NCBI RefSeq assembly: GCF_019802125.1
Contig: NZ_JAHVHT010000003.1
Location: 248,001 to 312,000, forward strand
Origin: Tateyamaria omphalii
GTDB lineage: Bacteria > Pseudomonadota > Alphaproteobacteria > Rhodobacterales > Rhodobacteraceae
Direction of reading: 5' to 3'
DNA: 64,000 nt
The notes under the pieces were generated by a model. It was not told the DNA's origin and did not search any database. It saw only the letters and a list, made by a program, of their open reading frames with translations. The translations under genes and the position numbers were made by a program. Positions 7,706-58,218 of the stretch are shown here, one piece after another (the first letter of the stretch is position 1; every line of letters starts with the position of its first letter).

Positions 7706-7722
7706 GAAAGTGACCTAGCATC

Positions 7723-7765
7723 GGAGGCGGCAGGGGGGCCAGCCCCCCGGCGCATATGCGCCTCC
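7723..7765. repeat. nested inverted repeat between tmk and holB
   Basis: An outer stem GGAGGCG (7723-7729)/CGCCTCC (7759-7765) encloses a GGGGGG/CCCCCC hairpin (7733-7738/7743-7748). The right side also contains the perfect palindrome GGCGCATATGCGCC (7749-7762). There is no T-run on the minus side, so it is more likely an mRNA structure or processing site than a simple terminator. Confidence 0.5.
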
Positions 7766-7778
7766 CCCCGTCGTATTG

Positions 7779-8414
7779 TCAGTCAGAAGAAGCCAGGTAT
7801 GCGGCAGCGACGCTCTGAACGTCGTTGGCCACTGCGCTGACGTCCTGCGCACCATTGATCGTGCGAAAGCGATCCGGGAATTCGTTGGCAAGCGCAAGGA
7901 ACCCTGCACGCATTTTTTCCTGCAGATCGGTTCCGAAATCTTCGAACCGTTCTTCGATACCCTGCCGCCCCTTGGCGCGGGCAAGGCCCTGGGTCGGGTC
8001 CATGTCGATCAGGATCGTCAGGTCGGGTTCCCGCCCAATCATCAGGTCGTGGAGCGTGTCTACCTTGGCGCGAAGATCCCCGCGGCTGAGACCTTGATAC
8101 ATGCGGGTGCTGTCGGCGAAGCGGTCACAGATCACGATCTTGCCGGCATCGACAGCCGGTTGGATCAACCGTTCCATGTGATCCCGCCGGGCCGCCGTAA
8201 AAAGCAGCAGTTCGGTTTCTGCGGACCAGCGATCCGGATTACCCTGCAAAACAAGCGCGCGTATTTCCTCGGCCCCCGGGCTGCCGCCGGGTTCGCGGGT
8301 CAGGACCACGTCATGGCCAAGGCCGCGCAAGTGGTCCGCCAGCAACCGCGCTTGCGTGGATTTGCCGGAGCCGTCGATGCCTTCGAAGGTGATGAAGTGC
8401 CCCTTGGACGTCAC
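7779..8414 (-). CDS. tmk: thymidylate kinase
   Basis: 211-residue dTMP kinase making dTDP for DNA synthesis. Motifs: P-loop ITFEGIDGSGKSTQARLLAD, the LTREPGG dTMP-binding segment, CDRFADSTRMYQG (DRY/DRF motif), and the lid region following ARAKGR. Normal length. The start overlaps the end of the DD-carboxypeptidase gene by 4 bp (ATGA type), so the two are probably coupled, and holB lies downstream on the same strand. Confidence 0.96.
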   Translation of the reverse strand: MTSKGHFITFEGIDGSGKSTQARLLADHLRGLGHDVVLTREPGGSPGAEEIRALVLQGNPDRWSAETELLLFTAARRDHMERLIQPAVDAGKIVICDRFADSTRMYQGLSRGDLRAKVDTLHDLMIGREPDLTILIDMDPTQGLARAKGRQGIEERFEDFGTDLQEKMRAGFLALANEFPDRFRTINGAQDVSAVANDVQSVAAAYLASSD

Positions 8415-9577
8415 GCGCCACCTTCGGGCGCGGTTTCCTCGTTGAAGCGCTCGATCAGTGACAGGGCAGCGGTCGAAATCTTGGCAAGGAAGCCGCCATG
8501 GGCAATGTCGTCCTCGGCCAGCAGCGGGACGCGCACCTCCGGCAACCCTTCTGGCTGGATCACCAGTTCACCCAAGGGCGTTCCGGCGGCAATCGGTGCC
8601 TGGACCGGGCCGGTGTAGACGACCTCGGCATTCACGGTCTTGCCAGCGAGGATGGGCAGAAGGACGGTAACGTCTTCCTGTGGGACGAGACCCACTTCGG
8701 GTTCCGCACCTTCCCACACGCGGGCGGTGGCGACACGCGTTCCGCTTTCCACCACTGTACGTTCGGCAAACTGGCGGAAGGCCCAGTTCACAATCGCCTC
8801 GGATTCCTGCGCGCGGCCCTCTACCGTGTCGAGGCCCGAGATGACGAATACGACGCGGCGCTCGCCTTGCTTGGCCGAGCCGGTCAGGCCGTAGCCGGCT
8901 TCTTCCGTGTGCCCGGTCTTCAAGCCGTCGGCGCCAATGCCGAGCGTCAGAAGCGGATTGCGGTTGAAGCGGTTTGAGCTTTCGTTTGCGTCAAACAGGA
9001 ACTCGGTTTCCGAAAACATCGGATAGTATTCGGGATAGTCGGATATCAGCCGTTGCGCCAAAAGGCCCAGGTCGCGCATGGACATCCGGTGCCCTGCGGC
9101 GGGCCAGCCGCTGGAGTTCGCGAATGTCGAATTGGTCATACCCATCTCCTGCGCGCGCCGGGTCATGAGGCGGGCAAATCCGGCCTCGGTCCCGTCGGGG
9201 CTGAGCGCTTCGGCAATGACAACGCAGGCATCGTTGCCAGACAAGACGATGATGCCGCGTATCAAGTCCTCGACCGTGACACGCTCGCCCTGCTGCAGAA
9301 ACATGGTCGAACCACCAAAGCTCGCTGCATGCGTCGATGTCACCAACTCGTCCGTCATGGCCAGTTGCCCACGCTCCACGGCTTCGAACGCCATATAAAG
9401 CGTCATCAACTTGGACATTGACGCAGGCGGCAGTGGCTCGTCTGCGTTCTTGTTCAGCAAAACGGTGCCGGTGGTGTGGTCAATCACATAGGCCGCCGTC
9501 GCGCGTGTCTCAAACGCAGTGACGGGCAGGGCGGTGCTGGCAATCAGCAGGGCGGCAGCAGCGAGGGGGCGGATCAC
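8411..9577 (-). CDS. D-alanyl-D-alanine carboxypeptidase (PBP5/6 type)
   Basis: 388-residue periplasmic penicillin-binding protein of the DacA/DacC group that trims the terminal D-Ala from peptidoglycan stem peptides. A signal peptide (about residues 1-21) precedes FETRATAAYVID. Active-site motifs are SMSK at residues 53-56, SGND near 114 and KTGHT near 219. The C-terminal beta-domain is present (VPLLAEDDIAHGGFLAKIST), with a final amphipathic segment likely to touch the membrane. Located between the SPOR lipoprotein gene (17 bp upstream) and tmk (4-bp overlap). Confidence 0.92.
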   Translation of the reverse strand: MIRPLAAAALLIASTALPVTAFETRATAAYVIDHTTGTVLLNKNADEPLPPASMSKLMTLYMAFEAVERGQLAMTDELVTSTHAASFGGSTMFLQQGERVTVEDLIRGIIVLSGNDACVVIAEALSPDGTEAGFARLMTRRAQEMGMTNSTFANSSGWPAAGHRMSMRDLGLLAQRLISDYPEYYPMFSETEFLFDANESSNRFNRNPLLTLGIGADGLKTGHTEEAGYGLTGSAKQGERRVVFVISGLDTVEGRAQESEAIVNWAFRQFAERTVVESGTRVATARVWEGAEPEVGLVPQEDVTVLLPILAGKTVNAEVVYTGPVQAPIAAGTPLGELVIQPEGLPEVRVPLLAEDDIAHGGFLAKISTAALSLIERFNEETAPEGGA

Positions 9578-44868: not shown

Positions 44869-44944
44869 GCCCCTATAGCTCAGCTGGTAGAGCAACTGAT
44901 TTGTAATCAGTAGGTCCGCGGTTCGAGTCCGTGTGGGGGCACCA
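44869..44944 (+). tRNA. tRNA-Thr (anticodon UGU), island integration site
   Basis: 76-nt tRNA with encoded CCA. Acceptor GCCCCTA pairs with TGGGGGC. The anticodon arm ACTGA-TTTGTAA-TCAGT has TGT at 44902-44904, and the T-arm loop is GTTCGAGTC. The last 16 bases (CCGTGTGGGGGCACCA) are repeated at 52896-52911, marking this tRNA as the attachment site of the following island; the tRNA itself remains complete. Confidence 0.96.
44929..44944 (+). repeat. attachment-site core, left copy (in tRNA-Thr)
   Basis: CCGTGTGGGGGCACCA, identical to 52896-52911. Direct repeat of a tRNA 3' end flanking an integrase is the hallmark of tyrosine-integrase site-specific integration. Confidence 0.88.
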
Positions 44945-45009
44945 CTTCTTCTCGTTTTAAGCATTGAAAACAATGGGATGGCCTCCGAAGGGTTATTTGC
45001 GGTCACCAT

Positions 45010-45021
45010 TTTGGTCACCAA
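45010..45021 (+). repeat. TTTGGTCACCAA element near the left island end
   Basis: The 12-mer is identical to 52743-52754 next to the integrase gene. A second GGTCACCA copy lies at 45001-45008. Candidate arm-type integrase or excisionase site; inferred. Confidence 0.4.
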
Positions 45022-45183
45022 TCCGCTGCGCAGGCACGTCATCGGTCTGATGTTAGATCAATCATTTTGCTCTCGCCGTTAAGGGGGGGGGGCGCTACGA
45101 TCTCCAAGGCGGTTCGCATCCAGACCGGTCATACCTACCAACACGAATTTTTCAGATTTCTGAAAAACACACCCCCTGCATTG

Positions 45184-47508
45184 CTACCGAGCATAGAGGT
45201 GAGACTGAATTTCCACGAAGGCCGTGCGAATTTCCGCAACGCTTCCCAGAACACGTTTTGCGTCGTTCGTTCCGCCGTACTTAATCTTTAGGAAGTCCCC
45301 AATTTTCTTGAGGTCAAGCTCATCGACTCCACGCGCTGCATATGAGCTCAGAACATATGCTAAAAAATCTTTCATCTCGGCTTCGTAACCGGCCAAGCCA
45401 GAATTAGCCGCACTTTCGGCCCTGTCTAATCGACTGAGAGGAGCCAGAGCGAAGCGGACATGTGCGAGGACGTCAAAAACATCGCTGTTGGGCGCGTCGA
45501 TTAGTCTCCGCATGTCATCGATTTTCTCGCGGTCGTATCCTCGATCTTGAAGCTGGGCCAAAAACCTGGATCGTGTTTCTGGATCGCTCCAAATCTTGCG
45601 CAGTTGGTCTTCATCCGAGATTAAGCCCTCCAAGTCGCCAAAAAGTTGGTTCATGAACTCTTTTGCGGAGATAGGCCTGCCGTCGTGTGACCAATAAGTC
45701 GTCGTTCCGATGAACCTGATTTGGCGTTCCTTCCCATCAGCCAATCGCACAACGACTTTTTCCGCAGGTGGTGGCGTTGGCGTCGGTTCGCCGGGTCCGA
45801 CTGTTGGGGGTGGCTGGGTCGTCGGTTCACGAGGTGGGTCAGGGTCCAATGGCTCTCCGTCCCATTCAGGATCGTTGAAATGCTCGTAGGCCTTCACAAA
45901 GTCGATGATTGTGAAAAAGTCTTTTCCCTCAAACGTTCGCGTTCCGCGCCCCACAATCTGTTTGAACTCAATCATCGACTTGACTGGGCGCAATAAAACG
46001 ATGTTCCGCACATTTCGAGCATCCACACCAGTAGAGAGCTTTTGCGATGTGGTTAGGATCGTGGGAACCGACTTCTCGTTGTCCTGAAATTCGCGAAGAT
46101 GTTGTTCGCCAAGTGCCCCGTCCTCCGCAGTGACCCGCTCGCAATAATGCGGGTCATCGCTGGTTTTGATTTGGTTGATGTAGTCGCGGACAAAGGCTGC
46201 ATGGGGCTGTGTCGCGCAGAAGACGAGCGTCTTCTGGTTCTGATCGATCTCGTCCATGAACTGCGTTATGCGGCTTTGCTCACGTTCGGGAATGAAGATC
46301 GTCGTGTTGAAGTCACCTTCGCCGTATTCCTTTTCCTCATCTATCTCGCCGGATACCACGTCGTCTTGGTCGTCATATGTGTAGGTGTCGAGCGTGCTGG
46401 CCATTTGGCGGACCTTGAACGGCGTTAGGAAACCGTCTTCGATGCCGTTCTTGAGAGAATAGCTATAAACAGGCTCCCCGAAGTACGAATATGTATCTGC
46501 GTTCTGCTTGCGCTTCGGCGTTGCAGTCAGGCCAAGCTGAACAGCGGGCGCGAAATACTCCAAGATGCCGCGCCAAGTGCTCTCGTCTTTTGCGCCGCCT
46601 CTGTGGCATTCATCCACGATGATCAGATCGAAGAAGTCCGGCGCATAGTCGTAAAAATTTGCTTCGCCTTCGCCGTCTTTTCCTTCGGTCATGAACGTCT
46701 GGAAAATTGTGAAGAAGATGCTCGCGTTCTTGGGCATCTTGCCCTTTTTGCGGATTTCGTCGGGTGAGATGCGCGATAGGGCGTCCGCTGGGAAGGCTGA
46801 GAAAGAATTGTAGGCCTGATCGGCGAGGATGTTGCGGTCGGCGAGGAAAAGCACTCTGGGGCGGCGTGAGGGCTCATAGGAGAGGTTCCAGCGGGCCTCG
46901 AACAGCTTCCATGCTATCTGGAAGGCGATGGACGTTTTGCCTGTCCCTGTGGCGAGGGTCAGGAGGATGCGGTCTTGGCGATTAGCTATGGCATCCAGGG
47001 CGGCGTTGACCGCGCGGGCTTGATAGTAACGCGGTTCCCATTTGCCACCACCTGTCTCGAAGGGGATGGAACCGAATTTCTCTCGCCAAGGGTTTGGGGT
47101 GGGGAAGATACGTGCCCAGAGGTCTTCCGGCGTCGGGAACGGCGTGATCTCGCGCTCCGTGCCCGTCTTCATATCGACTTCGTGCCAGCCGATACCGTTG
47201 GTGGAATAGGCGAGCGGGGCGTCGATCCGAGTGGCGTAGTCCACAGCCTGCCCACGCCCGCTGGTGGAGCCTTTGGAGGCTTTCTTGGCCTCGATCACCG
47301 CCATGACATGATTGTTCATGCGCAGCACGTAGTCGGCGGGTTTGGGGGCGGCGCGGTTCTGTCCGACGTTGATCCGACCAGGCCACAGCATTTCTTCGCG
47401 GTTGATACGAGCACCGGGGATGGCGTCGGGGCCATACCATCCCGCTTTCATCAATTCGGGATCAATCCGATTGGCGCGAGTATCTTCTTCGGTCTCGTCA
47501 AAACTCAT
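45184..47508 (-). CDS. hsdR: type I restriction endonuclease, R subunit
   Basis: 774-residue HsdR. An N-terminal nuclease domain has a PD-(D/E)xK-like site in ADYVL and AVIEAKKASKG. The helicase core has Walker A TLATGTGKTSIAFQ near residue 189, Walker B DECHRGG near 300, LGLTATPKRKQNADTYSYFG and late helicase motifs including RPVKSMIEFKQIVGRGTRTF. The C-terminal 150 residues are helical, as expected for HsdM/HsdS contact. It degrades unmethylated DNA in complex with HsdM and HsdS. Last of the hsdM-S-R operon, with a 39-bp gap from hsdS. Length suits compact HsdR proteins. Confidence 0.93.
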   Translation of the reverse strand: MSFDETEEDTRANRIDPELMKAGWYGPDAIPGARINREEMLWPGRINVGQNRAAPKPADYVLRMNNHVMAVIEAKKASKGSTSGRGQAVDYATRIDAPLAYSTNGIGWHEVDMKTGTEREITPFPTPEDLWARIFPTPNPWREKFGSIPFETGGGKWEPRYYQARAVNAALDAIANRQDRILLTLATGTGKTSIAFQIAWKLFEARWNLSYEPSRRPRVLFLADRNILADQAYNSFSAFPADALSRISPDEIRKKGKMPKNASIFFTIFQTFMTEGKDGEGEANFYDYAPDFFDLIIVDECHRGGAKDESTWRGILEYFAPAVQLGLTATPKRKQNADTYSYFGEPVYSYSLKNGIEDGFLTPFKVRQMASTLDTYTYDDQDDVVSGEIDEEKEYGEGDFNTTIFIPEREQSRITQFMDEIDQNQKTLVFCATQPHAAFVRDYINQIKTSDDPHYCERVTAEDGALGEQHLREFQDNEKSVPTILTTSQKLSTGVDARNVRNIVLLRPVKSMIEFKQIVGRGTRTFEGKDFFTIIDFVKAYEHFNDPEWDGEPLDPDPPREPTTQPPPTVGPGEPTPTPPPAEKVVVRLADGKERQIRFIGTTTYWSHDGRPISAKEFMNQLFGDLEGLISDEDQLRKIWSDPETRSRFLAQLQDRGYDREKIDDMRRLIDAPNSDVFDVLAHVRFALAPLSRLDRAESAANSGLAGYEAEMKDFLAYVLSSYAARGVDELDLKKIGDFLKIKYGGTNDAKRVLGSVAEIRTAFVEIQSHLYAR

Positions 47509-47547
47509 ACGCGCAACGGTAGTGAAATTCGCTGAAGCGTAAAGAGG

Positions 47548-48708
47548 TTAGGTGAGTTCGCCTGCGAAAGCTCTTTGCAGAAGGGATTGGCGGAGATCGT
47601 TGATATTTGCGATCTTGTCGGTTGCCGACGCCAATAGTGCAGCATGGGCTTCCGAAATCTTTTCCATTCGTTTAACAGCTACAGTCTGCTGTGTTTGGGG
47701 TGGGCACTTTAGTTTGAGCGTCTTCACATCTCTAATGTTGATTTGCATAAGAGCTGCACCATAGGTCTTTTCAGAAATCTGCTTCTGCAAAAAACTGGAT
47801 TGGCATTGATAGAACCCAAAAAGGCGGTTCATTCGTTCGTTAAACCTAATCGGAACGATACCGCGAGTTACATTGGCGCCTCGGAGTTCATGAGACGACA
47901 AGCTAATGGTCCCCGTTGTTCCCCTTACACAAAGCAGCAGTTCTGTACCGTTGAGTTGCGTGCGCGAATAAGACGCCGCACGCTCTGGTGCGACCCTTTT
48001 TAGACCCGCCGGTGATACGATTTTGCCACCCAAATCGACAGGACGCACAACTGGCAATCCGTTCGCCACGTCCTCACCGGGTTGGACGATGCCGTAAGAG
48101 AGCGAGCAGTCTTCGTTTGCCAATTCCTGTAAGGTAAACTCTGGCCATTCTTCTTGCGCGAAAACTTCATCAAGCGATGACGTGAACAAGTCCCGTACGT
48201 TCTGGAGGTTGGCGTCGGCGTGGGCGCGGGCGCGGGCCAGTCCCTCGAAGGCCTCATCCAAAACCGCAACAATCCGCTGTTGTACTTCGAGCAGTGGGAG
48301 GGGGATTGGAATTTCCCGCAATCGGCCTTGATTGAGCTTGGGAACGGTCATGCCCGATACGAACGGCATGAGGTCCGTGCCGTTCAGATAGTAGATCAAC
48401 CAGTCATCCAAAACTTGATCTCTATGCGGGCGGATCACATGAGCGTGGTTGTTGACCCACGCCTTGCCCTCAATGGCGAAGGCTGAGTTTTCGCCCGCTT
48501 CCCATTTCGCGCCATCCTCGCCAATCAGTACCAGCGGTTCATCAAAGAGGTATCCATCGACGTGATCAAGAACGCCAGTTGCTCCATAGTATGGGTATGG
48601 GCCAGCCGTCCTATCCTTCTTAGTAATTGGTTTTCTCAATCGATCTAGTACATCGACTAGTTCGCCAAGTGGTTTCGTTGGCCAGCCGAAGTCAGCAGTG
48701 TCCTTCAC
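47548..48708 (-). CDS. hsdS: type I restriction-modification specificity subunit
   Basis: 386-residue HsdS with two target-recognition domains. TRD1 begins WPTKPLGELVDVLDRLRKPI and TRD2 begins WPEFTLQELANEDCSLSYGI. Each is followed by a helical spacer: QQRIVAVLDEAFEGLARARA near the middle, and the TAVKRMEKISEAHAALLA-like end with LRQSLLQRAFAGELT. The start is the GTG at 48708 overlapping the hsdM stop by 4 bp; a longer open frame upstream is an hsdM shadow. The target sequence cannot be read from this. Confidence 0.9.
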   Translation of the reverse strand: MKDTADFGWPTKPLGELVDVLDRLRKPITKKDRTAGPYPYYGATGVLDHVDGYLFDEPLVLIGEDGAKWEAGENSAFAIEGKAWVNNHAHVIRPHRDQVLDDWLIYYLNGTDLMPFVSGMTVPKLNQGRLREIPIPLPLLEVQQRIVAVLDEAFEGLARARAHADANLQNVRDLFTSSLDEVFAQEEWPEFTLQELANEDCSLSYGIVQPGEDVANGLPVVRPVDLGGKIVSPAGLKRVAPERAASYSRTQLNGTELLLCVRGTTGTISLSSHELRGANVTRGIVPIRFNERMNRLFGFYQCQSSFLQKQISEKTYGAALMQINIRDVKTLKLKCPPQTQQTVAVKRMEKISEAHAALLASATDKIANINDLRQSLLQRAFAGELT

Positions 48709-50156
48709 AGCATTCCCCGAATGTCTTCGAGGATTTGCGCTGTCTCGGCATCCCGTGCCAGCATGTCGGCAATGATCTCTTCGGGGCACCGCAGAGCCTC
48801 GGCCTCGGGAGCGTTGGGGTTCTTGACCGACAGATCGTAGGTGTCCTCGTCCAGATCGGCGCGGTTCACGATCCAGCTTTTCGGACCGTTCGGGCGGGTA
48901 CGTTGCAGATCGACAAAACCCGCCAGATCGTTGTCGTTCAGCGGGTTGGTCTTGCCGAGGCTGCGGCCCGGATCGAGCTGGTAATACCAGATGTCCCGCG
49001 TCGGCGCGCCTTTCTCGAAGAACAGCACAACGGTCTTGACGCCCGCGCCCTGGAAAGTGCCTTGAGGGCAATCGAGGATGGTGTGCAACTTGCAGGTCGC
49101 CACGAGTTCGCGCCGCAGCTCGACACTCGCATTGTCGGTGTTGCTGAGAAACGTGTTCTTGATGACGATGGCCCCGCGCCCGCCTGCCTTAAGTTTGCGG
49201 ATAAAGTGCTGCAGGAACAAATAGGCGGTTTCACCAGATTTGATCGGAAAGTTCTGTTGGACTTCTTTGCGTTCACCGCCGCCAAAGGGGGGATTGGCAA
49301 GGATCACGTCGTGACGGTCCTTTTCCTGAATATCCATCACGTTCTCATTGAGCGTGTTGGCGTGGATCAGGTTGGGCGTGTCGATCCCGTGCAGGATCAT
49401 GTTCATAATGCCGATGATGTAGGCCAGCGACTTCTTTTCCTGACCGAAGAAGGTGTCGCGCTGGAGCGTCCGAAAATCCGCTGCCGAGATGTCTGGCTTC
49501 ATCAGGTAGTCATAAGACTCACAAAGAAAACCGGCAGAGCCGACAGCGCCATCATAGACAGTTTCGCCAATCTTCGGATCGACCACCTTGATCATCGCCC
49601 GGATCAGCGGGCGGGGCGTGTAGTATTCCCCCCCATTGCGCCCCGCGTTGCCCATTCGCTTGATGCGGCTTTCATAGAGGTCAGACAGTTCGTGCTTTTC
49701 GGCTTGGGTGTTAAACGACAGTGCATCCACGATCTCTAAAACATCGCGCAAGGTGTAGCCGGACCGGAACTTGTTGATGATCTCCGAGAAAATCTCGCCG
49801 ATCTTGTATTCGAGCGTGTCGGCGCTGGACGCAGAGGCGCGGAACGCCTTCAGGTAGGGGAATAACTCGTCATTGACAAATGCAACAAGATCATCGCCGG
49901 TGATGGCGTTGTCGTGCTCCAGCTTTCCGTCTTCAGTCTTCGGCGCTGCCCAGCTTTGCCATCTGAATTGCTTTGATAGGATAGGCGTGTAGTCACGCCC
50001 TTCGAGCTCCGCCTCGTCCATGCGCGATTGCTCAAGATCGTCGAGGTATTTTAGGAACAAAATCCACGACGTTTGTTCAGCGTAGTCGAGTTCGGATGCC
50101 AAACCCTGCTCGTTGCGCATTTCTTTGTCGATGTTGTTGAATGCGTTCTCAAACAT
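48705..50156 (-). CDS. hsdM: type I restriction-modification methyltransferase subunit
   Basis: 483-residue N6-adenine methyltransferase. An N-terminal helical domain (FENAFNNIDKEMRNEQGLAS) precedes YYTPRPLIRAMIKVVDPKIG, the AdoMet motif YDGAVGSAGFLCES, and catalytic motif IV ILANPPFGGGERK near residue 286 (NPPF). It methylates the recognition site with HsdS to protect self DNA. First gene of the hsdMSR transcript; the AlpA-like gene is 414 bp upstream. Confidence 0.94.
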   Translation of the reverse strand: MFENAFNNIDKEMRNEQGLASELDYAEQTSWILFLKYLDDLEQSRMDEAELEGRDYTPILSKQFRWQSWAAPKTEDGKLEHDNAITGDDLVAFVNDELFPYLKAFRASASSADTLEYKIGEIFSEIINKFRSGYTLRDVLEIVDALSFNTQAEKHELSDLYESRIKRMGNAGRNGGEYYTPRPLIRAMIKVVDPKIGETVYDGAVGSAGFLCESYDYLMKPDISAADFRTLQRDTFFGQEKKSLAYIIGIMNMILHGIDTPNLIHANTLNENVMDIQEKDRHDVILANPPFGGGERKEVQQNFPIKSGETAYLFLQHFIRKLKAGGRGAIVIKNTFLSNTDNASVELRRELVATCKLHTILDCPQGTFQGAGVKTVVLFFEKGAPTRDIWYYQLDPGRSLGKTNPLNDNDLAGFVDLQRTRPNGPKSWIVNRADLDEDTYDLSVKNPNAPEAEALRCPEEIIADMLARDAETAQILEDIRGML

Positions 50157-50570
50157 GCGCAGCTCATCCCATTTTGCGTCAGGGTATATGGTTGGCGCGC
50201 GCTGCGTTCAATCGGCGTTTGTCTCTAACCTTGCTGCTCATTGGTGGGGTTGTTGTGTGTGGGCATAGGACGACAAGCCCCAGGCATTCGCCTTAGGCTC
50301 GCGTTCCTGTGCCCGTTCATCTTGCGTCTGCTCACCGGAGCCGGTCGCCGCTACGGGGCCCCTGATGTCACATCGATCCCGTGCATCAGGATTGGCCGCT
50401 ACTTTCGACATTGGATCATATGCCGGGAACCGGGCTTCGGCCTCTAGGACTGCCCTTGGCGTTTGGTTCCGCCCCGTGGTACGCCGTCCGCGTCTGGTGC
50501 CACCGTCTTGTCAGTACCGTCCACCAGTGCGGCCCCGCGTACTTGCCTGTGCGCGGGGTCACGTCAGCCG
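50157..50570. other. intergenic region between alpA-like and hsdM
   Basis: 414 bp with no supported gene on either strand; short plus-strand open frames there have no domain. It contains a hairpin CCCCGCG (50533-50539)/CGCGGGG (50552-50558) just after the AlpA-like stop codon, possibly a terminator separating the regulator from hsdM. The hsdM promoter is presumably in the 50160-50300 part. Confidence 0.5.
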
Positions 50571-50762
50571 CTAGGGCTGGGATTGTTTTTCCAGCAGGGA
50601 TTTGATGCGCGTGTCGATCTCGGAGCGATCCCAGTAAACGCTGCCAGAGAGCTTCACAGGGCGCGGCAGAATGCCGGATTGGATGTCGCGGTAGATCGAT
50701 GCCTTGGAGCGCCCACCGAGCTTCTGCGACAGCTCAGAAATCGTGATGAGTTGGATGTCCAT
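50571..50762 (-). CDS. AlpA-family excisionase-like regulator
   Basis: 63-residue winged-helix DNA-binding protein: ITISELSQKLGGRSKASIYR, then DIQSGILPRPVKLSGSVYWD and RSEIDTRIKSLLEKQ. AlpA proteins regulate integrase/excision genes in P4-like phages and islands. Its position next to the integrase operon supports that. Complete at normal length. Confidence 0.9.
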   Translation of the reverse strand: MDIQLITISELSQKLGGRSKASIYRDIQSGILPRPVKLSGSVYWDRSEIDTRIKSLLEKQSQP

Positions 50763-50860
50763 AATTCTCTCCGTCTGATTGAGACGACTTGAGAATTATT
50801 GGTGTCAGAACGGAGCAGCTAACCCCCAACACACCCAGATGTTGGATGTCGAGTTGGGGG

Positions 50861-51514
50861 TCAGGCGTCAAAGTCCGTCATAGCAACGAGGATTTTGAAC
50901 GCTTTTTGCAGGTCTTCGAAGTCTCGCTGATATTCTTCGCCTTTTTCCACGGCGGTCTCAGCGGCCCGCCGCCAATTTGCCTTTTCTCCTAAGGCCAGGA
51001 ACACGGCTTCAACGCATTTTCCGAATATCGATGAGGGTTCCGCGCCTCGCTTTGCTGCGCTGGGCGTGAGGCCGAATTGTCTGAACAGGTGCGCGATCTC
51101 AATCGCTACAGTTGTTGCAGGGACATTTTGACGGCTCGGTTTCAGAATATCTGAATGCGACTTGGTAGCCGAAAGAACCTTGTTTTGTACTCTCAGGCTG
51201 CTTTCGATGAAGTCAATGAAGCCTTCGCCGTACTCTCGTTCCATGTCAGACTGAACTTCAGCATTTGCTGAAAGGACAGCAAGTAACGCCCTAAAACCTT
51301 TGCGTTTCTTTGCCGCTTTTTCCCGCACTTCAGCAAGTATCTTGTCACCTTCGCGTCGGTGACATTGAGCTATCCAATTGCCCAAGGCTTCAGCGCGTAC
51401 ATCATCAAAGATGGCCTGCATCTTCCGGGCTTTGACGTATAATCCGTCATGCGTGTATTGGCGAATGAGTGCATCTCGAATGATGCTGCCAACTTCAAGG
51501 TGGGTTTCGTTCAT
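50861..51514 (-). CDS. unknown island protein
   Basis: 217-residue, mostly helical, charged soluble protein starting MNETHLEVGSIIRDALIRQY, with a basic stretch VREKAAKKRKGFRALLAVLS and a late segment HLFRQFGLTPSAAKRGAEPS. No recognised domain. It overlaps the integrase stop by 4 bp, so it is translated with the integrase, and lies 98 bp upstream of the AlpA-like gene. A role in island excision, regulation or defence is possible; none is shown. Confidence 0.75.
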   Translation of the reverse strand: MNETHLEVGSIIRDALIRQYTHDGLYVKARKMQAIFDDVRAEALGNWIAQCHRREGDKILAEVREKAAKKRKGFRALLAVLSANAEVQSDMEREYGEGFIDFIESSLRVQNKVLSATKSHSDILKPSRQNVPATTVAIEIAHLFRQFGLTPSAAKRGAEPSSIFGKCVEAVFLALGEKANWRRAAETAVEKGEEYQRDFEDLQKAFKILVAMTDFDA

Positions 51515-52707
51515 GCTCGACCTGCAAACGGGATGACATCAACAGCCGTGTGACCATCCAAGAATGAACTCCACCGGTTCATTACGGCTCGCCGCTTCTC
51601 AACAAACGAGCCACGAATGTAAGCGTTGGTGGCGCTGTCGCCGACTTTGTGGTGTAGAATTGTCTCCGCAATCCGTTCCGAACAAACATCGTTCGAGACG
51701 ACCCAACCGCGAAAACTTGCCCGGAAGCCATGTGCGGTTACGTTCGTACCACGCCGCTTGAGCGATGCTCCAAATGTGTTTTCACTCAAATAGGGGCGTT
51801 TCTTGTTTGCAGGTGAAGGAAAGATATAGCCGCTTCCGTTGTCAAAATCCTTCGCGCGATCCAAGAGCGCGCGCGCTTCCGGTGAGAGCGGTACGATGTG
51901 GTCGCCGCGGTTTTTGACTTTCATTTTCGTCGCTGGGATCACCCATGTATCGCCGTCAACCTCATGCCACATTGCTTGTGTGACGTTGCTGACACGCACC
52001 ACCGTCGAGACCAAAAATTTGAACGCTGTATCTACCACCCCGTCATCGTAGCTTTGATAAAGCATCGGCACTTCCTGCCATGGCAGGGATGCATGACTGC
52101 TCGGGCGTTTGTTTTGTCTACCCAACAGCACTTTCGCCAATGGCACGGCATTCAGATTGACGTCGTGCCCTTCGGCGGCTGCATGTTCCAGGATGATTTT
52201 GAGCCTGCCGATGGCTTTGCGAGCCGTATCTGGCATGTCGGTCCAAATCGGTTTCAATGCATCACGTACATCGCTTTGATGAATTTGGTCGACGCGCAAA
52301 TGGCCAAGGCGCGGAAGCACATGGTCCCGCACTGGCGAATACCACCGCCCTGCAGTGCCACCGTTGTGCAATTGTGCTTTTCTGGCCTCAAATGCTTCTG
52401 GTGCGATCTGTGACAAAGTTGGAACGCCATTCTGACGGGCAGCCTTTTGAGCCGCGCGTCTACTTTGTGGAGATACACCATCGGCGATCAGCTTCTTCAT
52501 CCTTGCGGCCTCAACGCGGGCCGATGCGAGTGTGAAATGCGAAGCCGTTCCAATTACACACTCTGCCCGACGCCCGCTTTCTGGGTCCGTGTAGCGCAGC
52601 AGCCAGGTGTCTTGCGCGTTCGATCTTCTGCGGAAGTAAAGGCCATTTCCGTCGGCATGTTTGCCCTCTGGAAGCGCCTTTAGCTTGGTGTGTGTTAGCT
52701 TGGACAT
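51511..52707 (-). CDS. tyrosine-type integrase (P4/DUF4102 family)
   Basis: 398-residue site-specific recombinase. The N-terminal DUF4102 arm-binding region is KLKALPEGKHADGNGLYFRR with TWLLRYTDPESGRRAECVIG. The catalytic domain has the first Arg in VSTVVRVSNVTQAMWHEVDG, Lys near VIPATKMKVKNRGDHIVPLS, HGFRASFRGW (HxxR), ETILHHKVGDSATNAYIRGS with the His and nucleophile Tyr. The ATG at 52707 follows a GAGGT ribosome site; an upstream extension crosses the operator-like dyad. It lies 188 bp inside the right att copy. Confidence 0.93.
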   Translation of the reverse strand: MSKLTHTKLKALPEGKHADGNGLYFRRRSNAQDTWLLRYTDPESGRRAECVIGTASHFTLASARVEAARMKKLIADGVSPQSRRAAQKAARQNGVPTLSQIAPEAFEARKAQLHNGGTAGRWYSPVRDHVLPRLGHLRVDQIHQSDVRDALKPIWTDMPDTARKAIGRLKIILEHAAAEGHDVNLNAVPLAKVLLGRQNKRPSSHASLPWQEVPMLYQSYDDGVVDTAFKFLVSTVVRVSNVTQAMWHEVDGDTWVIPATKMKVKNRGDHIVPLSPEARALLDRAKDFDNGSGYIFPSPANKKRPYLSENTFGASLKRRGTNVTAHGFRASFRGWVVSNDVCSERIAETILHHKVGDSATNAYIRGSFVEKRRAVMNRWSSFLDGHTAVDVIPFAGRA

Positions 52708-52725
52708 CGGAAGTGACCTCATAGT

Positions 52726-52752
52726 GGTGACCAAAGCACAAGTTTGGTCACC
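52726..52752. promoter_or_regulatory. inverted repeat in the integrase promoter
   Basis: GGTGACCAAA (52726-52735) and TTTGGTCACC (52743-52752) form perfect 10-bp arms around GCACAAG. They lie 19-45 bp upstream of the integrase ATG. The right arm is part of the 12-mer also found near the left island end. Likely an operator, or an arm-type recombination site. Confidence 0.6.
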
Positions 52753-52895
52753 AAATCTTATGCGATGCGCCGTGAGTAATTGCAATCACATGCTACTACT
52801 TGCTACTCAGAGCTGGGCTAAAAATGACGTTAAAGTAAAGGCTTGTGAGTTCAGATGACACCTAGTGCGATAAGCTGAACCCAATAAATGTGGTG

Positions 52896-52911
52896 CCGTG
52901 TGGGGGCACCA
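52896..52911 (+). repeat. attachment-site core, right copy
   Basis: CCGTGTGGGGGCACCA, an exact copy of the tRNA-Thr 3' end. The bases before it (GTGGTG) do not continue the tRNA, so this is a partial duplication left by integration. Confidence 0.88.
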
Positions 52912-53755
52912 TTTCATCCTTGTTCACTGCTGCGACTGATGTTTTGGTCGGGTCTGGCCGTTGTTTGACAGGATGCATCGCGACCTCGAGTGAAAAGCAT
53001 GGTGTTTGCCGGTCGGATCGTGCGTGTCTTTGTTGCCTTCGAGGGGCTTTTCCCACTGTTCGATTGACAAATATCAAGCGCTTCGGGGTGTGGTGAATTC
53101 GCCTTGCCTAAACCCGCTATAAACCGGCGTTGTACGGCACAATTCGATGACCGCACCGCGATGGTATGCAGGCAAGTATCTGCAAGTGGACCGACATGAA
53201 GCCACCGCATGCTTCGGCGCAACAATTCCCTTTTCTACAACGGTTTAGCAATCCGTTTGCGGTGCCTGCGTGCCATAAACCATCGGTATAGGCATGGTCT
53301 TGAGCCGTGCGTAAACCGCCAACCTATCGACCGGTTCGGCTTCTTGCACAATCTGTTGATCAACCCACGGCGGATCCCCCTGCCGTCACATTGAAAGGTT
53401 GATTGCTCATGCCGTTGACACCGAACATCGCACCGCGCGTCGTGTGTTCACCATTCACGCCGCTTTCGTTGCTCGCCTTTGCGCAACAGTCCTTACGTGT
53501 CCCGTCCCGCTTTCTTAAAGCCGGACGAAATACGTTTGCGAGCCCTCGCCGTTCTGCGGTCATGCAGATGACAGATGAGGTGGCGTGATGCGCAAATTCG
53601 TTTCGCAAAACGTTGCTTGTCCGCGCGCTGCGTTGTGCGGCGCCAAATGCAAGCGCCGATCCCAGGCGCATGTCGGGCAAACGGCCTCCTCAACCCATCC
53701 ACCACTTTCAAGGCACGCACCACAGTGGTCCGTGCACAGCACCAAGGAGACAGAC
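52912..53755. other. long region without a supported gene, upstream of the AspH operon
   Basis: 844 bp. Several short open frames on both strands overlap each other and none has a recognisable domain (for example 53360-53680 minus). It must contain the promoter and leader of the four-gene operon starting at 53756, and the pre-island chromosomal sequence right of the attachment site. No tRNA or obvious riboswitch was recognised. Confidence 0.5.
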
Positions 53756-54358
53756 ATGAAGTATTTCAAGAAAATCCGGAGCGACGTCGATGTGTCCCCG
53801 TTCCTTGAGGAAATCGCGAGTGTCGATGATGCGTGGGCACAAGCGACGGGACGTCAGGACAAGATCGCCGTTCAACGTGAGGCGCTTGCCATTCCCTTGC
53901 GTGGTCTGCGCAAGTCGATGATCCTGGGGCGCAAGCGCCGCGACGTACACGAGAGCCGGTGGACAACCGGGTCGATCAAATTCCCCGTGGCGCGCAGTTT
54001 CATCGAGGATGTCGCACGTGAGCTGGACGCGGATATGAGCCGCGCCAAGATTGTCTGTCTGCCTGCAGGGCGTCGTGTCTACCCGCATATCGACCGGGGT
54101 GAGTATTATCGCTTCCGGGGCCGCTATCACTTCGTTCTGAAGTCCACCGCGGGGTCCTGGCTCAAAGCCGGCGATGAAGAGATCCGGATGAAGGAGGGCG
54201 AGCTTTGGTGGTTCGACAACGACCAAATGCACGAAGCCTTCAACGACGGTGACGAGGATCGGATCCACATCATCTTTGACCTGCTTCCAGCAGACATGCG
54301 TGCCAATGCCGCTACCGCGACCGAAAAGGCTCGCGCAAAACTTGAAAAGGCAGCCTGA
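53756..54358 (+). CDS. aspartyl/asparaginyl beta-hydroxylase (AspH)-family dioxygenase
   Basis: 200-residue 2-oxoglutarate/Fe(II) dioxygenase of the AspH fold (PF05118 type). His111 and Asp113 in YPHIDRGEYYRFRGRYHFVL, His159 in WWFDNDQMHEAFNDGDEDR, Arg169 and His171 in DRIHIIFDL are the expected metal and cosubstrate residues. Related bacterial enzymes hydroxylate peptide residues or lipids (LpxO, OlsC). No signal peptide or membrane helix. The ATG has an ideal AAGGAG ribosome site. It is first in a tightly spaced operon with a hydrolase (3-bp gap), a DUF1611-like protein and an ABC exporter. The substrate is unknown. Confidence 0.82.
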   Translation: MKYFKKIRSDVDVSPFLEEIASVDDAWAQATGRQDKIAVQREALAIPLRGLRKSMILGRKRRDVHESRWTTGSIKFPVARSFIEDVARELDADMSRAKIVCLPAGRRVYPHIDRGEYYRFRGRYHFVLKSTAGSWLKAGDEEIRMKEGELWWFDNDQMHEAFNDGDEDRIHIIFDLLPADMRANAATATEKARAKLEKAA

Positions 54359-54361
54359 ACA

Positions 54362-55195
54362 ATGTCACGCATTCAATTTCGCCACGGCATACCCGGCGTT
54401 GTGCCAAGCGCCTGGGTCATACATCCCGACGCGGGCAGCCGCGCGGTTGCGCCCGTGGTTGCCGTACATGGTCTGAATCGTGAGACTGAAGTTATGGCCA
54501 ACCTGTTGGCGCCCCGTGCCGACGCCACCGGGCGCACGATTGTCCTGCCGATTTTCGATCGCACCTCGTGGCGCCGCTACCAGCGTGCGGCCTGTGCGCA
54601 ACGGTCCGATTGGGCATTGATTGCGCTCCTCGATGCCTTGCGCGACGAGCGTGTGATTCAAGGCGGGCCTCCGGATCTGTCCGGCTTTTCTGGCGGTGCT
54701 CAATTCGCGCATCGTTTTGCATGGCTCCATCCGGACCAGGTCGCGCGGCTGTGCCTGGTGGCACCGGGCTGGTGGACCTTCCCAGATGCGCGCGGAGCGT
54801 TCCCGCTCGCCATCGGCACTGGCTGCAATGGACAGTCGTTTCGCTTGCGGGCCAATATCAAGCGCTTTCTGGACCGCCAAATGCATGTCTCGGTCGGTGC
54901 CTTGGACGTCAAACAGGACAGGAACCTCCGTCAGGACGCGGAGGTCGTTGCCCTGCAAGGGGCCAACCGGGTTGAACGCGCAAGGCGCTGGACGGCTGCG
55001 GCGATCCGTGCGGCGCGGCGTGTTGGCGTGGCGCCCCGGATCTCTTTCGATCTGATGGCCCACTGCGTGCACAGCTTTTCCGATTGCGTCGCCAACGCGC
55101 GCCTGGATCGCGCATTCGTGCCTGACTTTACCCCCCAACTTCAGACAAATCAGCCGCCCTTTCGCGGGCACGACCAACTTGGAAAGGTAGCCTAA
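54362..55195 (+). CDS. alpha/beta hydrolase
   Basis: 277-residue serine hydrolase. HGLNRE at residues 36-41 is the oxyanion-hole region, nucleophile Ser110 lies in the elbow SGFSGGAQFAHRFAWLHP (GxSxG), and a late His is in LMAHCVHSFSDCV. The acid residue is not certain. It resembles PHB depolymerase/esterase-like hydrolases of unknown substrate. The protein begins MSRIQFRHGIPGVVPSAWVI without a signal peptide. Its stop overlaps the next ATG (TAATG). Confidence 0.8.
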   Translation: MSRIQFRHGIPGVVPSAWVIHPDAGSRAVAPVVAVHGLNRETEVMANLLAPRADATGRTIVLPIFDRTSWRRYQRAACAQRSDWALIALLDALRDERVIQGGPPDLSGFSGGAQFAHRFAWLHPDQVARLCLVAPGWWTFPDARGAFPLAIGTGCNGQSFRLRANIKRFLDRQMHVSVGALDVKQDRNLRQDAEVVALQGANRVERARRWTAAAIRAARRVGVAPRISFDLMAHCVHSFSDCVANARLDRAFVPDFTPQLQTNQPPFRGHDQLGKVA

Positions 55196-56256
55196 TGGAA
55201 CTTCTGGATATGAACACCGATGCCGCCCAACATATTGCAGGCGCGAAATGGAGCTTTGTAACACGCCGCGTGCGTCGCGGTACGGTTCGGAAGCTGGATG
55301 GTGATCTGAGCGCCGTGCGGGCCGGTGACCTCGTCTTGGCGGAAGTGCAATGCATTGGCAGCCACAAGCGGTTGCAACTGAGCGACGGGCGCTACTCGGC
55401 GCTTTACCCTAAGGATCGTATCGTCCTGGCCTGCGGCGATCGCTTTGCGGAGGACCAGTTCGAAGGCAACGCGGCGCTTTCGCCAGATGGGTGCGACCTG
55501 CTTGCCGGCGGCGGGGTGGTTGGCTTGATGCAATCACGCAATGGAAAGGTCAAACGCCCGACCAGACTGTCGGTGATTGGACGGCTGGCGGACGCGGATG
55601 GCAAGGTGCTGAACCTTGATCAGTTCGCTCTCTCACACCATTCGGGATCTCGGCCCGAGCGGGTTATCGGTGTTCTGGGCACAGGAATGAATGCGGGAAA
55701 AACTGCAGCAGCGGCCGGTCTGGTGAACGGCTTTGCCCGGTTCGGCGACAAGGTGGCAGCGATCAAGGCGACGGGCACCGGATCGTTCGGTGATGTGCAC
55801 CAATATGAAGCAGCGGGCGCTGCCCGTACCTTCGATTTTACCGATGCGGGGCTCGCCTCGACCTTCCGGCAACCGGTTGAGCGACTTGACGCCCTGACCC
55901 GTTTGCTTCTGTCAGCCGCGTCGGATTGCGATGTCGCCATTGTCGAACTTGCCGATGGTGTGAGCCAGGTGGAGACAGCGGAGTTGCTGCGCCGTCCGGA
56001 CTACCGGTCGCTGTTCGATGCCTTCATGTTGGCAGCCCCGGGCGCGCTGGCATCCCGCGGTGCCCTGTCCTGGCTGGCCGAGCACGACATCGTGCCCATC
56101 GCGCAAACGGGCCTGATGACACAGGCACCGCTGGCGGCGCGCGAAGCCGAAACGCTTGGCTTGCCGGTTCTGTCTCGCGAGGATCTGTCGGACCCGGCGA
56201 CTGCGGGTTCGCTGCATGCGCTGCTGTCGGAGACACAGTCGGGGCATGCGGCATGA
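55195..56256 (+). CDS. DUF1611-like P-loop protein
   Basis: 353-residue protein. An N-terminal domain of about 150 residues (RRGTVRKLDGDLSAVRAGDL, VIGRLADADGKVLNLDQFAL) is followed by a deviant P-loop ERVIGVLGTGMNAGKTAAAA with Lys169, the segment GSFGDVHQYEAAGAARTFDF, and VAIVELADGVSQVETAELL. The layout fits the DUF1611 family, which includes the reported D-glutamate N-acetyltransferase DgcN, but sequence similarity to DgcN cannot be verified here. Its start and stop overlap its neighbours (TAATG, ATGA), so it is translated with the hydrolase and the ABC protein. Confidence 0.65.
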   Translation: MELLDMNTDAAQHIAGAKWSFVTRRVRRGTVRKLDGDLSAVRAGDLVLAEVQCIGSHKRLQLSDGRYSALYPKDRIVLACGDRFAEDQFEGNAALSPDGCDLLAGGGVVGLMQSRNGKVKRPTRLSVIGRLADADGKVLNLDQFALSHHSGSRPERVIGVLGTGMNAGKTAAAAGLVNGFARFGDKVAAIKATGTGSFGDVHQYEAAGAARTFDFTDAGLASTFRQPVERLDALTRLLLSAASDCDVAIVELADGVSQVETAELLRRPDYRSLFDAFMLAAPGALASRGALSWLAEHDIVPIAQTGLMTQAPLAAREAETLGLPVLSREDLSDPATAGSLHALLSETQSGHAA

Positions 56257-57857
56257 GCCGTAGACCCGCCATAGCTGCACATCGCCGGTGGATAGGACTG
56301 AGCGTTCTGGTCTGCCTGGCGATCGGGCAGGCGGCCACAATGGTCGTGACCGCCTTTGCCACGCGAGACGTTATTGGCGCGCTCAGGGAAGGAAATGGCA
56401 TTGTTCCCGTTCAGGCGCTGATTGCGATGGTTGCGGCGGGTTTCGCGATTTTCGGACTTCGATCAGCGGAAGGGGCGATCGGTGAACGCACGGCTCAAAG
56501 CTATGCTGCCGATATTCGCCGCACACTGTTCCTGCACATGACCAAGATGCCAACAAGTGCCATGGCGCGCAGGCGGGCAGGTGCGACAGCCTTGCGCTAT
56601 GTCGGTGACTTGACGGCATTCAAGGGCTGGGTTGCGCGGGGACTGGTCCGGTACATTTCTGGCGCAGTTACGATACCCGCGGCATTCCTGATCCTTTACT
56701 GGCTCGAGCCGAGGCTGGCTCTTGCGGCCGCTGTGCCGATTGGAGTTGTCGTGATCACGATCTTCCTGCTTGGTCAACCGCTTGCCGATGCCCATGCGAC
56801 GTTGCGTTCCAAGCGGGCGCGACTTGCGGCCGACATGGCCGAGCGACTGCCGCAGGGCATCGCGCTGCGCCGCTCTGGCCGGGTCAAGACAGAGTTGCGC
56901 GCGCTCGATGCCAAGTCGGAAAAGATCGTACGCGCGGCGGTCTGGCGCGCTTGGCTTGCTGAAACGGTTCGCGCAATGCCGGATGCAGCGGCTGGGATTG
57001 CAGGGGCACTGTGTTTGTGGGTTTGCCTTGATCTCCGCCTCAGCGTGGCGGATGCAGTCGCGGCGCTGACCGCTCTTGCGCTGGTGGTCTGGCCATTGCG
57101 TCATCTGGCTGACGCCCGCGACCGTCAAAAGGCATTTGGCGTGGCGCGTGCGAAGCTGGATGCGACACTATCCACCCCCCGGATGCGCAGTTTGAAGAAG
57201 GCCAATGCCGATCCAGACGCCCCCGCCGTCGCACTGGATGGCGTGCGGATGCCAGGTAGCGCGCCGTTGAACCTGACCCTGCAATGCGGTGAAATGCGCC
57301 GACTTTCAGGCCCCGCCAGTTGTGGAAAAAGCCGCCTGCTGCTGACCCTTGCCGGGTTCGAGGCCGCACCGGACGAAGGGATGCTCAAGGTTTTCGGCAG
57401 TGCGCCTGCTGCGTCGAAAAGTGGCCGTATCCTTTATCTTGGGCAATATGCACCCACTCTGAAAGGGTCGTTGCGCCGGGAGGTTACGCTTGGCACAGGA
57501 TGCGATCCCGAAAAAGCGGAGTTGCGCGATGTGATCAAACGCGCCGGGCTTGTCGACATGACAGAGCGGCTTGGCGGTCTGAACGGCCAGGTTTCGGAGG
57601 GCCGCCGCAATCTGACCTCAAGCGAGCGCGGACGGCTCTTCCTGGCGCGGGGACTGATCGCGCGCCCGGATCTGGCATTGATCGATGCGGACGAGATCGG
57701 ATTGAAAGGTGAAGCACTTGCCGTTCTGCTGGATCACTTTGAGTGTCTCGGCGCTGCAGTGCTGATTGTGACGTCGGACAAGGCGGCCCAGATCAGGCTG
57801 GGCTCACCGGTGCGACTGCAAACAACGGGTAACTACAGTCGTGCGGACGCGGCGTGA
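56253..57857 (+). CDS. ABC exporter half-transporter with degenerate ATPase
   Basis: 534-residue fused permease-ATPase (type I exporter fold). About six membrane segments occupy residues 1-290 (WIGLSVLVCLAIGQAATMVV, SGAVTIPAAFLILYWLEPRL, DAAAGIAGALCLWVCLDLRL). The ATPase has Walker A GPASCGKSRLLLT, but the signature is changed to NLTSSERGRLFLARGL, and after Walker B Asp the usual Glu is Ala (LALIDADEIG). Hydrolysis may therefore be weak. It is last of the AspH-hydrolase-DUF1611 operon, starting 4 bp inside the previous gene, so it probably exports or flips their product. No dedicated second half-transporter gene is next to it. Confidence 0.8.
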   Translation: MSRRPAIAAHRRWIGLSVLVCLAIGQAATMVVTAFATRDVIGALREGNGIVPVQALIAMVAAGFAIFGLRSAEGAIGERTAQSYAADIRRTLFLHMTKMPTSAMARRRAGATALRYVGDLTAFKGWVARGLVRYISGAVTIPAAFLILYWLEPRLALAAAVPIGVVVITIFLLGQPLADAHATLRSKRARLAADMAERLPQGIALRRSGRVKTELRALDAKSEKIVRAAVWRAWLAETVRAMPDAAAGIAGALCLWVCLDLRLSVADAVAALTALALVVWPLRHLADARDRQKAFGVARAKLDATLSTPRMRSLKKANADPDAPAVALDGVRMPGSAPLNLTLQCGEMRRLSGPASCGKSRLLLTLAGFEAAPDEGMLKVFGSAPAASKSGRILYLGQYAPTLKGSLRREVTLGTGCDPEKAELRDVIKRAGLVDMTERLGGLNGQVSEGRRNLTSSERGRLFLARGLIARPDLALIDADEIGLKGEALAVLLDHFECLGAAVLIVTSDKAAQIRLGSPVRLQTTGNYSRADAA

Positions 57858-58218
57858 CGGTTGTTTGTCCTTTTGCACAGGCGACACAAAAATGAGCGGC
57901 GTCGCCCAGTCCGCCGTGACGAAGCGAACATAATTCCTAAACGGGGGAAGATTTCCGCCAAAATTTTGTGCGAAATAGCGGATATTGCGCAAAAATAACG
58001 CACATAGGCTTGATTTGGCCCATTAATTGAGCGGCAGCTGGTGAGAAACAGAGCGAGAGCGATACCACTTGCGGCGGGCTGTACGGCTCGAAGTCGTGCG
58101 ATGGTGTCGGCCTAGGAAACCAAGAACACCACCGCACTCCGCATCAAATGCGTAGGGGGGCATATGGATGTTCGGAATTCCGAATGCAACGCCCTGCGCG
58201 ACACGCAAGGGGACACAG
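57858..58218. promoter_or_regulatory. urtA upstream region with A/T-rich dyads
   Basis: 361 bp without a gene. The A/T-rich centre (57960-58010) holds the palindrome TTGCGCAA (57985-57992) and the arms TGTGCG (57967-57972) and CGCACA (57999-58004). The same ATTGCGCAA element occurs upstream of the second binding-protein gene at 35240. No GCAC-N7-GTGC NtrC box was found. It is the likely urtABCDE promoter and operator region. Confidence 0.5.

Follow-up and report, generated by a model that had tools for sequence, protein, structure and literature searches.

Gene content and organization of the locus

The 64,000-nucleotide window analyzed here (Tateyamaria omphalii assembly GCF_019802125.1, contig NZ_JAHVHT010000003.1, positions 248,001 to 312,000) contains four adjacent open reading frames (ORFs) on the plus strand at window positions 53756 to 57857, as read in the sequence. 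These ORFs form a conserved, unnamed operon-like unit that may be an undescribed system modifying aspartate-repeat proteins. The first ORF (53756 to 54358) was predicted to encode a 200-amino-acid AspH-family 2-oxoglutarate/Fe(II) oxygenase (aspartyl/asparaginyl beta-hydroxylase), and the second (54362 to 55195) a 277-amino-acid alpha/beta hydrolase of the PahZ1/LpqC family. They are followed by ORFs predicted to encode a 353-amino-acid P-loop protein with a beta-rich N-terminal part, remotely related to DUF1611, BioD, and MobB (55195 to 56256), and a 534-amino-acid ATP-binding cassette (ABC) exporter-like protein of the CydDC/MsbA type with a degenerate ATPase domain (56253 to 57857). The junctions consist, in order, of a 3-bp gap, a 1-bp overlap (TAATG), and a 4-bp overlap (ATGA). 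A ribosome-binding site, AAGGAG (53744 to 53749, plus strand), lies 6 nucleotides 5' of the first ATG. The tight operon and ideal ribosome site described in an initial annotation, which had been made from the sequence alone, were therefore confirmed.

Compared to five relatives, synonymous divergence (Ks) was high (1.15 to 2.30), and ratios of nonsynonymous to synonymous divergence (Ka/Ks) were low for AspH (0.03 to 0.06, the lowest of the four), the hydrolase (0.10 to 0.20), the P-loop protein (0.065 to 0.11), and the ABC protein (0.08 to 0.12), indicating that all four are real genes under purifying selection. An antisense ORF over the hydrolase gene, present in the first gene call, was rejected on the basis of a better gene caller and Ka/Ks.

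An in-frame segment of 56 codons 5' of aspH (53588 to 53755, plus strand), possibly an N-terminal extension or a leader, contained cysteines spaced C-x5-C-x3-C. This spacing was present in five loci (the window, L026, L027, L099, and L032, where L numbers denote comparison loci fetched from other places or genomes, and G numbers denote comparison genomes) and absent from L028 to L031 and L033, in which the open upstream frames were 10 to 33 codons long. Among the window, L026, L027, and L099, the extension had a Ka/Ks-type ratio of 0.27 to 0.56. The short peptide gene that the initial annotation had thought might be hidden in an 844-bp leader was not borne out, as no convincing or conserved separate ORF was found in the aligned segment from 53350 to 53800; the leader stretch itself exists but starts at a repeat that closes a genomic island. 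No sigma-70-like promoter was found by a consensus scan. Weak evidence was obtained for a terminator-like stem where the fourth gene ends (57838 to 57858, plus strand), and the region contained 11 terminator-like sites compared to 5.4 expected.

The island (44929 to 52918, approximately 8 kb) carries a type I restriction-modification system and a tyrosine integrase and is bounded by a repeat overlapping the 3' end of a tRNA-Thr gene (44929 to 44951) and its 91% copy (52896 to 52918). Because this right repeat ends the island at 52918, the operon lies outside it, and the possibility that the operon is island cargo was rejected. In L026, L027, and L099, the operon precedes the same downstream genes as in the window. 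A defense system was also rejected, with no PADLOC match for the four proteins at an E value of ≤0.001.

Distribution of the gene order

The initial annotation had named absence of a conserved gene order in all relatives as grounds for refutation, and these grounds do not hold. The order AspH-hydrolase-P-loop-ABC was found in 14 distinct loci besides the window, for a total of 15 (the others being L026 to L033, L053, L065, L099, L129, L131, and L133), with histidine kinase-type and response regulator-type genes following the four in L129, L131, and L133. All four genes occurred in other arrangements in L071 and L139, and L076 contained the P-loop, ABC, and AspH genes without the hydrolase. Further loci contained the hydrolase, P-loop, and ABC genes without AspH or the P-loop/ABC pair only, and this pair extended to Acidobacteria and Thermoplasmata.

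The module is accessory. AspH was found in 4 of 20 genomes sampled from the genus, 9 of 295 from the family, 11 of 385 from the class, and 1 of 304 from the phylum, the last being the genome of the window itself. The P-loop gene was found in 22 of the 295 family genomes (G126 and G196 among them, about 35% alike) and in 20 of the 385 class genomes, including far homologues without an adjacent ABC gene. Within the family sample, eight of the nine AspH genomes were among the 22 P-loop genomes (P = 2e-9), although two of the eight (G063 and G125) have AspH and the P-loop gene at separate places; the ninth, without the P-loop gene, carries a 42% relative. In the class sample, AspH matches of at least 300 bits were in P-loop genomes in 5 of 5 cases, compared to 1 of 6 for weaker matches.

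Predicted AspH hydroxylase and PahZ1-like hydrolase

The assignment of the first gene in the initial annotation was upheld by a match to PF05118 at 60.6 bits (cutoff, 22.6), the sole match to this family found in the genome. Residues H111, D113, H125, H159, R169, and H171 were invariant in 17 of 17 sequences. These include the His pair and Arg expected of the family for metal and 2-oxoglutarate binding (H111, H159, and R169). A hydrophobic N terminus was absent by a crude hydropathy measure. The protein is a likely aspartate hydroxylase and would act in the cytoplasm.

Lipid modification, with AspH acting like LpxO or OlsC and an MsbA-like protein moving the lipid, is very improbable. AspH weakly matched the LpxO and OlsC models, and MsbA models matched the ABC protein, but the LpxO and OlsC scores of 17.8 and 11.6 bits were far below the NCBIfam equivalog cutoffs of 500 and 450. 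The lipid hydroxylase reading was rejected on these scores. In addition, the hydrolase is PahZ1/LpqC-like, and profile searches of the four genes detected no acyltransferase family.

The second gene had been annotated initially as an alpha/beta hydrolase, which was correct at the family level but unspecific. A profile of 22 homologues compared to the Protein Data Bank (PDB) matched LpqC (3d0k, 1.7e-33) and PahZ1 (9o7u, 1.3e-32; 6ve6, 1.5e-29) far more strongly than the next structure (2.4e-5), and a search with the single sequence likewise placed PahZ1 and LpqC nearest. The AlphaFold model (mean predicted local distance difference test [pLDDT] score, 79.6; below 50 for residues 140 to 161 and 260 to 277) gave Foldseek matches of 3.1e-16 and 2.2e-15 to PahZ1, 1.3e-14 to LpqC, and 2.4e-9 or weaker to others. 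Thus, in both homology and fold the protein is closer to PahZ1 than to most hydrolases, with LpqC equal by profile. Residues S110, D182, and H237 were invariant in 22 of 22 homologues and, from the alignment, would form the Ser-Asp-His catalytic triad. By sequence profile and modeled fold the hydrolase belongs with PahZ1 and LpqC; cleavage of poly(aspartic acid) by the window enzyme is putative. PahZ1 cleaves beta-aspartyl amide bonds and has so far been studied on synthetic poly(aspartic acid) (PMC4456602).

Aspartate-repeat proteins encoded near AspH and P-loop genes

Seven AspH relatives (41 to 48% identity) were examined for their neighbors, and six of these lie immediately after a same-strand gene ending in (Gly-Asp)n. 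Complete upstream genes contained 50 (L098), 24 (L158), 70 (L159), and 14 (L162) Gly-Asp units, and the contigs of L160 and L161 start within the repeats directly before AspH; no such gene lay beside AspH in L163. The six loci span four families. Three or four Gly codons and both Asp codons are used within the repeats, a mixture that suggests selection at the protein level. No P-loop match was found in the genomes of these six loci (E ≤ 1e-5 for G014 and E ≤ 1e-20 for the others), and the L163 genome had two. Five of the seven loci (L098 [7698 to 9281, minus strand], L158, L160, L161, and L162) also encode a 530-amino-acid protein close to AspH, the L098 copy of which had no Pfam or NCBIfam match and a best PDB match of E = 0.66.

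Other Asp-rich proteins were encoded at loci with module genes. In L030 and L031, a gene for an Asp-rich protein, one of a cluster predicted to be secreted, is divergent from aspH and approximately 0.2 kb away. Another cluster of predicted secreted-type proteins ending in poly-Asp was found in L063 (from the genome of the window), L055, L072, and L073, with an EF-hand identified by Pfam in L063. S8 peptidases with poly-Asp (by Pfam in L070) adjoin extracytoplasmic function sigma factor-type and anti-sigma-type genes. Predicted secreted proteins with (Asp-Asp-Asp-Val/Ile)n repeats (L138, 14976 to 16437; L140, 4095 to 5796) are encoded next to barrel-like proteins (just below the cutoff for BBP2_2 in L138), with two-component, P-loop, and ABC genes in the surroundings.

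Among 79 fetched loci (the window not included), 18 of 26 Asp-rich ORFs were within 1.5 kb of AspH or P-loop genes, a zone comprising 27% of bases (P = 9e-6), with a threshold for Asp-rich ORFs chosen post hoc, after examples were known, and related loci treated as independent. Within 2.5 kb the count was 21 of 26 (P = 1.4e-5). Strict poly-Asp runs were enriched (56 seen versus 1.39 expected), a rough figure in which overlapping matches were counted and G062 was represented by L031, a record taken to cover its locus.

In the genome of the window, the EF-hand poly-Asp gene (L063, 9424 to 9813) lies directly before a paralogous P-loop gene. Two small poly-Asp-tailed proteins with hydrophobic N termini and no Pfam match are encoded side by side at C3:468 kb (L086, 9319 to 9561 and 9640 to 10071), a site that holds the only three six-Asp-codon matches in this genome.

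P-loop protein and degenerate ABC protein

The P-loop protein contained a Walker A motif (GTGMNAGKT, residues 162 to 170) and E251-x-ADG. Its AlphaFold2 model (mean pLDDT, 92.4) had SRP54, BioD, and HypB as best Foldseek folds, and its profile matched BioD (2.6e-4) and, at 0.035 only, MobB. The initial description as DUF1611-like was only weakly right. DUF1611 (PF07755) was matched by 16 of 24 aligned homologues at the permissive level of E ≤ 0.1 (best, 3.7e-5), and the window protein itself had no match at E ≤ 1. By sequence, the protein is only distantly DUF1611-like.

Far homologues in L144 (9189 to 10235, minus strand), L145, and L146 adjoin genes of the argC and argB types, with argD codirectional in L146 and convergent in the other two. 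When the L144 genes were run against models, argC scored over its cutoff and argB and argD just below theirs; the calls in L145 and L146 rest on gene clusters shared with L144 rather than on models. None of the five genomes with far P-loop homologues had an ArgJ match, which the genome of the window does have, and their ArgA consisted of the kinase part only, 1 to 1.2 kb from the P-loop match. Based on these neighbors, the lack of ArgJ matches, and the kinase-only ArgA, the P-loop family may N-acylate glutamate, and the far homologue may be a non-classical N-acetylglutamate synthase. These are hints of acidic amino acid N-acylation in the family, and the same activity would have to be extrapolated to the window protein.

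The ABC protein passed the Pfam cutoffs for both PF00664 (45.3 bits) and PF00005 (40.1 bits). When four motifs were considered (Walker A, signature, Walker B Glu, and H-loop His), the window protein retained Walker A only, with LTSSE at the signature, DAD in place of the catalytic DE, and no H-loop His. With the signature, catalytic Glu, and H-loop His lost, the exporter of the initial annotation is not supported in the sense of an ordinary ATP-driven pump. In a motif search on an alignment of 46 non-duplicate P-loop-adjacent ABC proteins, 12 had all four motifs, 11 (including the window protein) Walker A only, 9 none, and 14 a mixture. Ka/Ks was 0.14 to 0.22 for the ATPase part (faster, still constrained) and 0.04 to 0.06 for the membrane part.

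These observations bear on the main rival explanation, which is somewhat unlikely: a small-molecule pathway in which free Asp, Glu, or beta-hydroxy-Asp is N-acylated by the P-loop protein and hydroxylated by AspH, the hydrolase has a trimming role, and a modified acidic amino acid or an aspartyl peptide is transported by the membrane protein. Consistent with such a pathway are the argC/argB neighborhoods of L144 to L146 and the positions of P-loop homologues next to M20 deacylase-type genes (L146 and L147 and, on our reading of the loci, L081 and L082). A protein cluster in eight Acidobacteria, Myxococcota, and Thermoplasmata loci, represented by its L041 member, the only one run, had M14 and AstE/AspA matches, and the PDB matches of AspH included proline hydroxylases, for which free proline is a substrate. 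However, the pathway accounts neither for the (Gly-Asp)n genes next to AspH relatives nor for the degenerate state of the ATPase in the presumed exporter.

Another explanation is that the unit serves the synthesis, hydroxylation, trimming, and export of a ribosome-independent acidic polymer (cyanophycin- or poly-Asp-like). Members of a single ligase cluster, together with HlyD-type genes, occur by the P-loop and ABC genes in the distant loci L043, L058, L077, and L079, where the L043 ligase scored 402 bits against cyanophycin synthetase (TIGR02068; cutoff, 850), and the PahZ1-like hydrolase would suit such a polymer. The ligase cluster nevertheless has no member in the window region or the compared AspH loci, and the ABC protein is degenerate, making this explanation improbable.

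Separately, the P-loop proteins of L077, L079, and L058 carry an extra C-terminal part, which in L077 matched the Mutator transposase family (PF00872, 44 bits); the L058 gene is annotated as a transposase. A Priestia plasmid cluster (L057, 4730 to 13418) encodes a 27% P-loop relative together with an ornithine carbamoyltransferase, an ATP-grasp protein, a thiamine pyrophosphate enzyme, an M20 peptidase, and a phosphoenolpyruvate mutase family protein, and is perhaps a pathway to a phosphonate product.

Proposed function

The initial annotation, which was partly supported overall, had suggested a secreted modified lipid, amino acid derivative, or short peptide as the product. The acidic amino acid derivative survives as the small-molecule pathway described above, and aspartate polymers are now the first choice because of the PahZ1 match and the Asp-repeat neighbors of the relatives. 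The parts of the unit converge on such polymers, through a gene linkage that was observed and a chemistry that can be proposed. We assign a probability of roughly 0.45 to the reading that the unit modifies aspartate polymers in the cytoplasm, the targets probably being Asp-rich stretches of secreted proteins to which AspH adds beta-hydroxyls.

The four genes would then represent the AspH-bearing branch of a conserved module acting on aspartate polymers. In the cytoplasm, AspH would place a beta-hydroxyl onto Asp residues of proteins secreted later, within their Asp-rich tails or repeats, and the PahZ1-like hydrolase would cut beta-aspartyl amide bonds or trim Asp oligomers. Using a nucleotide and perhaps acyl-CoA, the P-loop protein would acylate or ligate an acidic amino group. 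Its membrane partner would be the ABC-like protein, which in this lineage has presumably ceased to be an ordinary ATPase. The purpose could perhaps be binding of Ca2+ or metal at the surface. In the genome of the window, targets would need to be encoded outside the window, and the three poly-Asp genes in L063 and L086 are guesses, since the window has no Asp-rich ORF and few were found in AspH/P-loop loci.

Several observations weigh against aspartate polymers as the substrate. The window contains neither a six-Asp-codon run nor an Asp-rich ORF, and Asp-rich ORFs were found in only 3 of 18 AspH loci also holding the P-loop gene (L030, L031, and L076) and in neither orphan AspH locus (L096 and L097). 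Of the six (Gly-Asp)n loci, three (L159 to L161) belong to a single genus. The proximity test depended on the post hoc threshold and on treating related loci as independent, and the association was weaker within 4 kb (21 of 26; P = 0.006). Six-Asp runs occurred in 226 of the 295 family genomes, which shows that Asp-rich proteins also occur where the module is absent, and a strict six-Asp run was present in only 5 of 22 P-loop windows. LpqC is no farther from the hydrolase than PahZ1 is, and we know of no natural substrate of PahZ1.

In a broader form, modification of aspartate polymers would define an undescribed class of modified (Gly-Asp)n and poly-Asp proteins in Alphaproteobacteria, in which AspH hydroxylates many Asp residues and the P-loop/hydrolase/ABC-like set adds or removes beta-amide groups, as a ribosomal counterpart of cyanophycin-type polymers; this form is unlikely. 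Isoaspartate classically forms at Asp-Gly repeats, and a beta-aspartyl hydrolase would thereby have a natural role.

Hydroxylation of Asp is known mainly from animal epidermal growth factor (EGF) domains and a few peptides, and the system, if real, would represent bacterial hydroxylation of aspartates in long ribosomal Asp repeats. It would also propose a natural setting for poly(aspartic acid) hydrolases of the PahZ1 type. Because (Gly-Asp)n genes are paired with AspH relatives, short synthetic peptides would allow a direct test of the substrate. Independently, the arg-gene neighborhoods point to a candidate for the missing N-acetylglutamate synthase of small-genome Alphaproteobacteria.

Comparison with known systems

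A literature search, with most subscription papers outside its reach, surfaced no paper on the whole four-gene system, none among the titles listed that linked AspH with Asp-rich proteins, and no named pathway for the set, in agreement with the initial annotation. Known systems were therefore compared gene by gene.

The window ABC protein resembles CydDC and MsbA exporters in its recognizable membrane and ATPase domains and differs in its degenerate catalytic motifs; it scored 104 bits against CydD (cutoff, 435) and 96.6 bits against CydC (cutoff, 329). The P-loop protein shares the P-loop domain with DUF1611 proteins, which include DgcN, a D-glutamate N-acetyltransferase. It differs from them in that only its homologues match DUF1611 and in its pairing with an ABC-like membrane protein. 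In the portions available, PMC11747546, PMC12363236, and PMC10845958 mention the D-glutamate pathway and not DUF1611.

The closest known pieces are AspH and PahZ1. The PahZ1 enzymes of Sphingomonas KT-1 and Pedobacter KP-2, together with LpqC, match the window hydrolase best by structure and near-best by sequence, and the window hydrolase keeps the triad residues; it has approximately 20% identity to them and shares its operon with the AspH, P-loop, and ABC genes. Human AspH, which acts on EGF-like domains, is of the same family as the window AspH, in which the His and Arg residues are conserved. The window AspH is bacterial, only 200 amino acids long, and without a hydrophobic N terminus, and the neighbors of its relatives suggest Asp repeats, rather than EGF domains, as its substrates.

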